From Tubiluchus corallicola (taxonomy: Eukaryota; Priapulida; Priapulimorpha; Priapulimorphida; Tubiluchidae): a stretch of 64,000 bases of DNA. The notes beneath the pieces are model-generated. The model worked only from the letters and a program-made list of their open reading frames with translations, had not been told where the DNA came from and searched no databases. The translations under genes were made by a program, and so were the position numbers. The stretch is from positions 149,501 through 213,500 of the forward strand of contig JAQGDQ010000287.1 of assembly GCA_030141605.1 (NCBI GenBank). The letters are read 5' to 3'. Positions 28,901-31,900 of this stretch are shown piece by piece (position 1 is the first letter of the stretch; each line of letters starts with the position of its first letter).

Positions 28901-31900
28901 ACTTGTAACTTTCTAACTTACAAGAAAGACATAGCACAGCTAGCATCCTGCTAACTCATAAGAAAGATATAGCATAGCATCTTGCTAACTCATAAGAAAG
29001 ACATAACAAAGCTAGCATCTTACTAGCTCATAAGAAAGTCATAACAAGGCTGGCATCTTTGCAGTCCATCAGAAAAACATAGCAAAGTTAGCATGTTACT
29101 AGCTCATAAGAAAGACAGCAAAGCTATTACCTTACTAACTCATAAAAAGACACAGCAAAGCTAGCATCTTATTAACTCATAAGAAAGGCATAGCATTGCT
29201 ATCACTTTACTAACTCATAAGAAAGACATACCATAGCATCTTACCAGCACATACGGACAACACAGCAATGTTAGCATCTTACTAACTCATAAGAAAAATG
29301 TAGCAATGCAAGCTTCGAATCAGCTCATAAGAAATATATAGCAAAGCAAGCATCTTATGAACTCATAAGAAATATACAACAAAGCTAGCTTCTTACCAGC
29401 TAATAAGAAAGGCATAGTAAAGCTAGCACTTTACTAGCTCATAAGAAAGACATAACAAAGTTAGCATCTTGCTAACTCATAACAAAGACATAGCAACCTG
29501 CATCTTACAAGCACATAAGACGGACATAACAAAGCTGAAGTCATACCAGCTCGTAAGAATTACATAACAAAACTAGAATGATAATATCTCAACACTCATA
29601 AGAAAGACATGGCAAATTTTAGGTCTTACCGGCTTTTTTCATTTGGTAGTTGAAATCGAAAAGACTTTCAAATGTTGAAATAAATGTTTTGGTCAGTTGC
29701 AGAGCAAAATCGGCTTGACCAGCAGCTATCTTGTGTGGTACACCCCAGGCTCGTATCTTGCAAAATTATTGAAATTTTAGACAAAATCAAAACTATTAGG
29801 CCAGTTGTTGTCGTATCCAATTGACTTGTGACTCTGACTAGTGAGTTTAAATTTTAATTTCAAATCTGGATCAACGTATGCATTATGCTGAACATTTTCT
29901 TTCAAAATACTAAATGTGGCATATGTAAGCAAGTAAGTAAGTAAGTGAGTAAATATATAAGTAAGTAAGTAGGTAAGTAGCAAATAGGTAGGTAGGTAGG
30001 TAGGTAGGTAGGTAGGTAGGTAGGTAGGTAGGTAGGTAGGTAGGTAGGTAGGTAGGTAGGTAGGTAGGTAGGTAGGTAGGTAGGTAGGTAGGTAGGTAGG
30101 TAGGTAGGTAAATAAGTAAGCGAATAAATAAGTAAGTAAAGCAAAGTAAGTGAGTAAGTAAGTAAATAAGTAAATAAGTAAGCATATAAGTAAGAGGTAC
30201 GTTAGTAAGTGAGAAAGTAATAAGTAAGGATCTTATTCTCATAAAACGTTTCCATTCTCCATGGCTACTTTACAAAAGTGTAAATTGAAGCAATATCTGA
30301 ACAAGCTGACTTACAATATTTCATTTTCAAATACATTTGTTAATAAACTCACAGTAATGCATGAAGAAAAACTTTAAGTAAGACGAATCTGTGGGTATTT
30401 AAAAGCGCATGAAAAAGTGGAAAATTTTTTATACACTTTTAAGTACCCAAGGATTTGTCTTTCCAAGAGCTAAACATTTACTGGAATACTGGATAGTACT
30501 TAATTTTATCCCCAAAGTTGGTTGGGAACAAGGACAGTACCTTTGTTTCTCGATCTGTTTTGTCCTCTACATAATCAAAGTTGGAAACTACGAACGCCAG
30601 CAGATACGTTGACATCACCACCGTCATCTCTGTTTTATCAGCCATCCAACCGTTACCTCTAATATAAACATGAACCGTTTATATGAACATGTATCATCAT
30701 ATTATAATACGTAAAGAAATGTTTTTCCATTTTTATACAGTTCTGTTTACCGCAAAGCAGAATCCAGCATTTACTGGCGGTCCTACTTAATGTGGATTTG
30801 TGGCAAGACCGAAACCTAACTGATTATCAAGGCTATACCTTTGAGATGGCCGCTGAATATATTCTCTTTCTGAGATGCAATCAGCAAATTTATAGAAAGG
30901 GGATTAAAACGATTCACCGACAATTGATTGATCTTCCTCAGCGCCATTCTTAAAGTTGGTCATCAATATCGTGACCACTCGGTTATGAAGTTCGCCTACA
31001 TACGTTTTAAAAAAACACTGTAAAAGAATTTTTAGCTAACAATTTGTGAACTAAATCTCAGATCACTGGTTTATGATGGTAAAAGGAAACGCACAAAATT
31101 TAAGAATTTGACGACCTTGACAAATCATGGCTTCATTTCATTATAAGCTTCACTTGTTTCGTCAAATTCTTAAATTTTTCTTAAAGTGATCTTGGGGACA
31201 AATTTCTAGATGTCTAAGAAATTCTTTATTAATTTTACCAAAAATTGAGCAAAAATGTCAAAATTGTGAAAAATTTCAATTATTGGCAAGCAACTGTGCT
31301 TACAAATAATCTCTTCATAGTCATTGTGCATTTTTTTAATTCTAAAATGTCAGAAAACTTGTGCTTTCTTCTGGTTGAGATTTAACGCATGCGTAGAAAG
31401 TGCGGCAATTATAATGATGGATTAATTCGTTTGCAAAGCAATTTGTAATCCGTGTAAATACAGAAATGTCGCTATTTCAATGCGAATTAACTTCAAATGA
31501 ACGCACTCTAGGTCACATTATTGTCTTCGTCAGGTCACCCACCTGTCTTCCGTTTCATAGATTGGTGTGTTGGTTATGGAGGACATGTTATTCCTTCTGA
31601 CAAGAGTCACATTGAATGTTGCTTTCAGTTGAGGTTCGTCAAAGCAAGGAAATGCTCTTCTAGCGTAAGTGGCAGCAAACTGGGTGACGGCGAACCATCT
31701 GTAGAAAAATGAAATGTTAGATTCATTGCCAATGTGAAAAGACAAGGTAAAAAAGGTGGAATAAACTGATTCATGGTACACCAAAACTCTTTGAGAAATA
31801 ATGTTCCCAAAAAACTAGAATAAACTTACATAGAAAACACGAGTCCATTTACCTTTAAGAGTTAGAATAATGTGGTGAAGTTAATTGCAAAAATTAGAGT

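Follow-up and report, generated by a model that had tools for sequence, protein, structure and literature searches.

A 38-bp minisatellite adjoining the exon 4 donor of an M1 aminopeptidase gene in Tubiluchus corallicola

The aminopeptidase gene and the minisatellite of its fourth intron

The analyzed window comprises 64,000 nucleotides of the priapulid Tubiluchus corallicola (GenBank assembly GCA_030141605.1, contig JAQGDQ010000287.1, positions 149,501 to 213,500 of the forward strand), with a GC content of 33-41% in 4-kb steps. It hosts a multi-exon M1 aminopeptidase gene on the minus strand, with exons 1-6 extending from 33136 to 27774. When joined, exons 1-6 align with aminopeptidase N chains of solved structure (best E 1.4e-86) and contain the Pfam domains Peptidase_M1_N and Peptidase_M1. 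Searching the window with the same exons for a second copy of the gene gave no other match at E <0.1. The protein homology crosses from exon 4 into exon 5 uninterrupted (KKA|DLIAIP...GAMEN) and, together with the Pfam M1 domains, lends good support to the donor at 29630|29629 and to the acceptor at 28532|28531. Exon 5 contains the aminopeptidase motifs GAMEN and HELAH. Upstream of exon 4, intron 3 of this gene contains a long tract of tetranucleotides (29925-30228; minus strand TACC/TTAC). Elsewhere in the window, a highly uniform 41-bp minisatellite of 16 copies (97% match), probably young, is located at 7091-7748. The open reading frames at 26431-26898 and 34100-34354 appear to resemble ends of LINE-type retroelements, and those on the minus strand between 39209 and 45556, immunoglobulin-domain-like and membrane-helix-like in appearance, may represent an FGF-receptor-like gene.

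Within intron 4, Tandem Repeats Finder (TRF) defined a 38-bp array at 28909-29576 with 17.9 copies and 73% matches. When the consensus was aligned locally with wraparound, the array widened on the minus strand to 29629-28871, hosting 20 units and occupying 759 of the 1098 nt of the intron (Table 1). The sequence-only reading, which had counted about 19 units and placed the low end at 28905, is thereby revised to 20 units and an end at ~28871. The 38 bases past this far end score 14 and the last 38 bases of exon 4 score 12 against the consensus, both corresponding to background. Allowing up to 3 mismatches, a 19-base core of the unit has 12 matches in the window, all of them within the array, compared with 0.03 in shuffled sequence. 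A pattern of 24 bases of the unit had 0 exact matches in prokaryotic and viral contig collections, which says little because both collections are prokaryotic or viral. Checking all units for a higher-order repeat revealed a nearly flat mean identity of 0.70 to 0.74 at offsets of 1-11 units. Divergence is not simply greater at the ends of the array: units 2, 3, and 20 match the consensus at 29, 29, and 27 of 38 positions, and the interior units 9 and 10 are about as diverged (29 and 28 of 38).

Table 1. Features of the aminopeptidase locus discussed in the text (positions within the window)
Feature	Position	Strand	Basis
Exon 4 of the M1 aminopeptidase gene	29630..29756	-	homology
Intron 4, 1098 nt	28532..29629	-	boundaries backed by homology
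Exon 5, 155 nt, with GAMEN and HELAH	28377..28531	-	homology, Pfam
Minisatellite, 20 units of ~38 bp, consensus GTAAGATGCTAGCTTTGCTATGTCTTTCTTATGAGTTA	28871..29629	-	TRF and wraparound alignment
Unit 1, first bases = authentic exon 4 donor CCG|GTAAGA	29592..29629	-	29/38 to consensus
In-frame TAA on reading from exon 4 into the intron	29619..29621	-	sequence
Decoy donor CTG|GTAAGA, score 5.01 (site 29396), acceptor-like ...TTATTAG (2.19) immediately before	29391..29399	-	matrix scores
Decoy donor CTG|GTAAGA, score 5.01 (site 29244)	29239..29247	-	matrix score

The start of the wraparound alignment was unconstrained, and it began in phase 0 exactly at the GT of the donor. This supports the earlier proposal that the array starts at the exon 4 donor, the alignment beginning at 29629 as the first intron base, with positions +7..+13 being weak. 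It had also been claimed that the first unit is the same sequence as the later ones. Consistent with this, unit 1 matches the consensus ungapped at 29 of 38 positions, representing the best of 121 registers tested (-60 to +60), and the runner-up (27/38, at +45) is located inside unit 2. A count of 33/38 is obtained with inserted letters dropped and is therefore flattering. The local alignment score of unit 1 is 46, whereas 1965 random 38-mers drawn from the window reach at most 26 (mean 12.6); removal of the donor hexamer leaves a score of 42, compared with a maximum of 22 in 800 random 32-mers. The match is distributed unevenly, with 6/6 at +1..+6, 1/7 at +7..+13, and 22/23 at +14..+36, and membership in the array is therefore secure from +14. 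Consequently, the array surely reaches +14 of the intron and probably reaches +1; the donor hexamer in exact register is, by itself, only suggestive of array membership.

Splice-like sequences in the units and their coding consequences

The motif GTAAG opens 7 of the 20 units, the authentic donor included, in agreement with the at least seven units named before, and GT is found in register in 11 of the 20 units, with unit 2 reading GA. Donor sites were scored by a metazoan matrix that was not made from this species. On this scale, the authentic donor (5.63) is the top of 80 GT sites scanned in intron 4, the scan stopping a few bases short of the intron end. Splice-site scoring of the units, which had been proposed as a check, thus yielded two internal donors near the authentic one (Table 1), and the other GT sites of the intron remain at 2.83 or below. 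At the rate of the window's minus strand, a stretch as long as the array is expected to contain 0.27 sites scoring no more than 1 bit away from the authentic donor. Twelve donors of the aminopeptidase gene, hand-picked under exclusion of ambiguous exon ends, range from -1.3 to 7.7, so that a low score does not exclude use.

In respect to the acceptor-like half of the unit, the array contains 8 exact copies of CTTTCTTATGAG and 11 of TTTCTTATGAG. The proposition that most units keep the former accordingly holds for the shorter form only. The AG of this half is usually GAG. Among 72 AG sites scored in and around intron 4, only those at 28878 (3.70) and 29399 (2.19) exceed the real acceptor (1.37), by a matrix that is not this animal's; as the 8 real acceptors of the gene, with an unproved exon left out, span -7.0 to 7.2, this scale is crude. 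The site at 28878 corresponds to the acceptor-like tgcctcgtttttcttatcag (28879-28898) near the distal end of the array. An acceptor and a donor side by side, as had been envisaged for each unit, can be recognized at 29399-29396 only, where both sides have fair scores and are three bases apart, the acceptor being mostly weak elsewhere. The ladder of decoy splice sites described by the sequence-only reading therefore persists insofar as the array adjoins the donor and several units are donor-like, and it does not extend to the acceptor half in general.

Recursive splicing had been considered as a further consequence. A recursive splice (ratchet) site consists of an acceptor directly followed by a donor, AG|GT. 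This arrangement is present at 0 of 20 unit boundaries, and the array contains AGGT only twice, at 29499 and 29132, in both cases out of register. As no unit boundary has AG|GT, there is no ratchet site for recursive splicing and the suggestion has to be abandoned. Likewise, AGGT at the unit boundaries, looked for as the mark of a dual-specific splice site array of the UBC type, is absent.

Reading through past exon 4 results in GGT-AAG-ACC-TAA, with the stop at 29621. All 10 internal in-register GT donors, joined in silico to exon 5, retain this TAA; new protein forms are therefore impossible from these donors, and the use of the tested in-register decoys can only make nonsense transcripts. 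Alternative donors, as previously put forward, are in consequence excluded as useful for protein output at these 10 sites. Skipping of exon 5 (155 nt) would shift the frame and would lose GAMEN and HELAH.

Relation to known splice-site repeats

Minisatellites had been assumed not to be anchored at splice junctions. This is contradicted by published precedents in the human genes ABCA7 (PMC5954066) and CBS (PMC2630376). ABCA7 and other human genes already show the donor-anchored layout, of which the aminopeptidase array is a new example.

In the 25-bp VNTR of human ABCA7 intron 18, the first bases are the donor GT of exon 18. An isoform retaining one 25-bp unit by means of an internal donor is out of frame, with a premature stop and nonsense-mediated decay. 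Skipping of the next exon rises with array size, and unit retention is unchanged. Two frameshifting isoforms account for 14 +/- 6 and 2 +/- 1%, the 2% being read as unit retention (all PMC5954066). The aminopeptidase array resembles this type: it opens with the 5' splice site of exon 4, with +7..+13 weak, and GTAAG opens 6 of the 19 internal units as repeated donor-like sites. As in ABCA7 (PMC5954066), the donor GT of the upstream exon opens the array, the numbers of units are similar (23.7 in the human reference, 20 here), and a premature stop results when a unit is retained through an internal donor, a consequence predicted here from the sequence. In contrast, the unit is 38 bp long and A+T-rich instead of 25 bp and C-rich, and length variation and splicing effects were measured for ABCA7, whereas the aminopeptidase array is known from one sequence (PMC5954066). 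Gene and animal are also different, and no homology is claimed.

A survey of human paralogs describes tandem repeats at exon-intron boundaries (PMC2812944), and intron gain through tandem duplication has been reviewed (PMC3443670). In common with the array described here, the paralog repeats have units of minisatellite size (30 bp on average), are located at exon-intron boundaries, and can alter splicing; however, they are mostly short and recent (~4 units) and tied to novel introns, whereas the acceptor is located outside the array in the aminopeptidase gene (PMC2812944). The birth of intron 4 from the array, with both splice sites within the repeat, was rejected as a candidate explanation: the array ends at ~28871 and the intron end at 28532 is 339 nt further.

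Human UBC carries tandem dual-specific splice sites, and there, as here, a tandem repeat sets a regular ladder of splice signals. In UBC, AGGT is located at the monomer boundaries with a frame-keeping spacing of 228 nt, whereas in the aminopeptidase array the boundaries have no AGGT and a stop is present in the first unit (PMC10809524). The 31-bp VNTR c.1444_1467+7(16_21) of human CBS spans the donor and likewise represents a minisatellite overlapping a 5' splice site, with 16-21 units. Its reference unit comprises, by name, 24 exon and 7 intron bases, unlike the aminopeptidase array, which is intronic (PMC2630376).

If true, the aminopeptidase array would be another minisatellite seeded by a 5' splice site, outside human genes. 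It would allow spliceosome choice among near-equal donors at intervals of ~38 bp to be tested in a natural setting, as well as the question whether donor-anchored arrays become tolerable through an early stop. No principle is changed by it.

Conservation, RNA folding, and origin of the array

Conservation of the unit columns was determined with inserted letters dropped. In units 2-20, the consensus fraction is 0.816 for the donor columns 1-6, 0.763 for the GT, and 0.848 for columns 7-35; the GT ranks 29 of 38 adjacent column pairs, and columns 1-6 rank 23 of 38 windows. As the GT columns average below columns 7-35, the decoy donors are neither specially kept nor purged, and this comparison of unit columns revealed no sign of selection upholding the ladder. 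Selection for donor motifs accordingly gained no support, the GT columns showing no stronger conservation than the remainder of the unit.

We consider it likely that the array is a neutral, donor-anchored intronic minisatellite with rare decoy use that codes for nonsense. Tandem duplication would have affected the initial ~38 bp of intron 4, possibly including a few bases of the exon end, and slippage or unequal exchange may have expanded the array to ~20 units, the donor motif being copied along because it would have been part of the seed. The authentic donor, first in order and with the top score, would be used nearly always. Occasional use of an internal copy would lead into the observed stop codon, no more than 12 bases past the exon end, and such nonsense transcripts would likely be removed by nonsense-mediated decay. 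Considering the match of only 1/7 at +7..+13, the seed may have begun near +14, with the hexamer match being convergent on the donor consensus. Decoy use may also exceed a rare level, because two decoys are near the authentic donor and other donors of the gene score far lower (to -1.3).

That an unrelated minisatellite ends by coincidence within ~13 nt of the donor, the hexamer merely being a common donor consensus, appears rather unlikely to us. The weak segment of unit 1 (1/7 at +7..+13) fits such a coincidence, as does the recurrence of GTAAGA as the hexamer of donors e8 and e9 among the 12 scored. Furthermore, many tandem repeats are present in the window (57 overlapping TRF rows), from which the sequence-only reading chose the most striking. 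This is opposed by the hexamer and the +14..+36 block, which stand ungapped at the exact unit spacing; for agreement of the hexamer in a random register, we estimate a chance of ~1 in 38, to be read with the selection of this repeat as the most striking among many. A working decoy ladder would imply frequent use of internal donors and of the acceptor-like sites at 29399 and 28878, resulting in slow splicing, nonsense isoforms, and less aminopeptidase. Two decoys that fall short of the authentic donor by less than 1 bit and two array AGs outscoring the real acceptor point in this direction, and ABCA7 uses an internal unit donor, with longer arrays causing more skipping of the next exon; however, unit retention in ABCA7 is unchanged by array size (PMC5954066), the GT columns here lack special conservation, and the authentic donor is first and best-scoring, which makes such a ladder improbable in our view. 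Even more doubtful is a tunable brake on aminopeptidase output, with copy number and unit variants setting the number of exposed decoy donors and thereby the share of nonsense transcripts. This number might be tunable, as every unit would hold a donor together with the near-complement TCTTAT.

RNA folding bears on a further alternative, according to which the GUAAGA of each unit would pair with its own UCUUAU, hiding the decoys and leaving the authentic donor open. The consensus unit indeed folds by this pairing (-6.8 kcal/mol), a fold that is nearly absent from unit 1 (-1.5); the RNA of the whole array has a more stable fold than each of 20 shuffles (z -5.3); and the decoys at 29508, 29396, and 29244 have unpaired probabilities of 0.09, 0.15, and 0.19 versus 0.33 for the authentic donor. 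Nevertheless, the GTAAG units at 29282 (0.37) and 29023 (0.41) are at least as open as the authentic donor, another authentic donor of the gene has a value of only 0.17, and the fold of a single unit is ordinary (z -0.8, with 19% of 300 shuffles being equally good). Covariation was looked for in the array and none was found, with 82.0% of cells paired compared with 82.2% in shuffles, and a conserved hairpin concealing the decoys was rejected on this basis. Slid versions of the structure are 31-57% paired, as expected for a consensus-derived structure. We thus regard such self-masking as highly improbable and interpret the GUAAGA/UCUUAU pairing as an incidental result of the unit being self-complementary.
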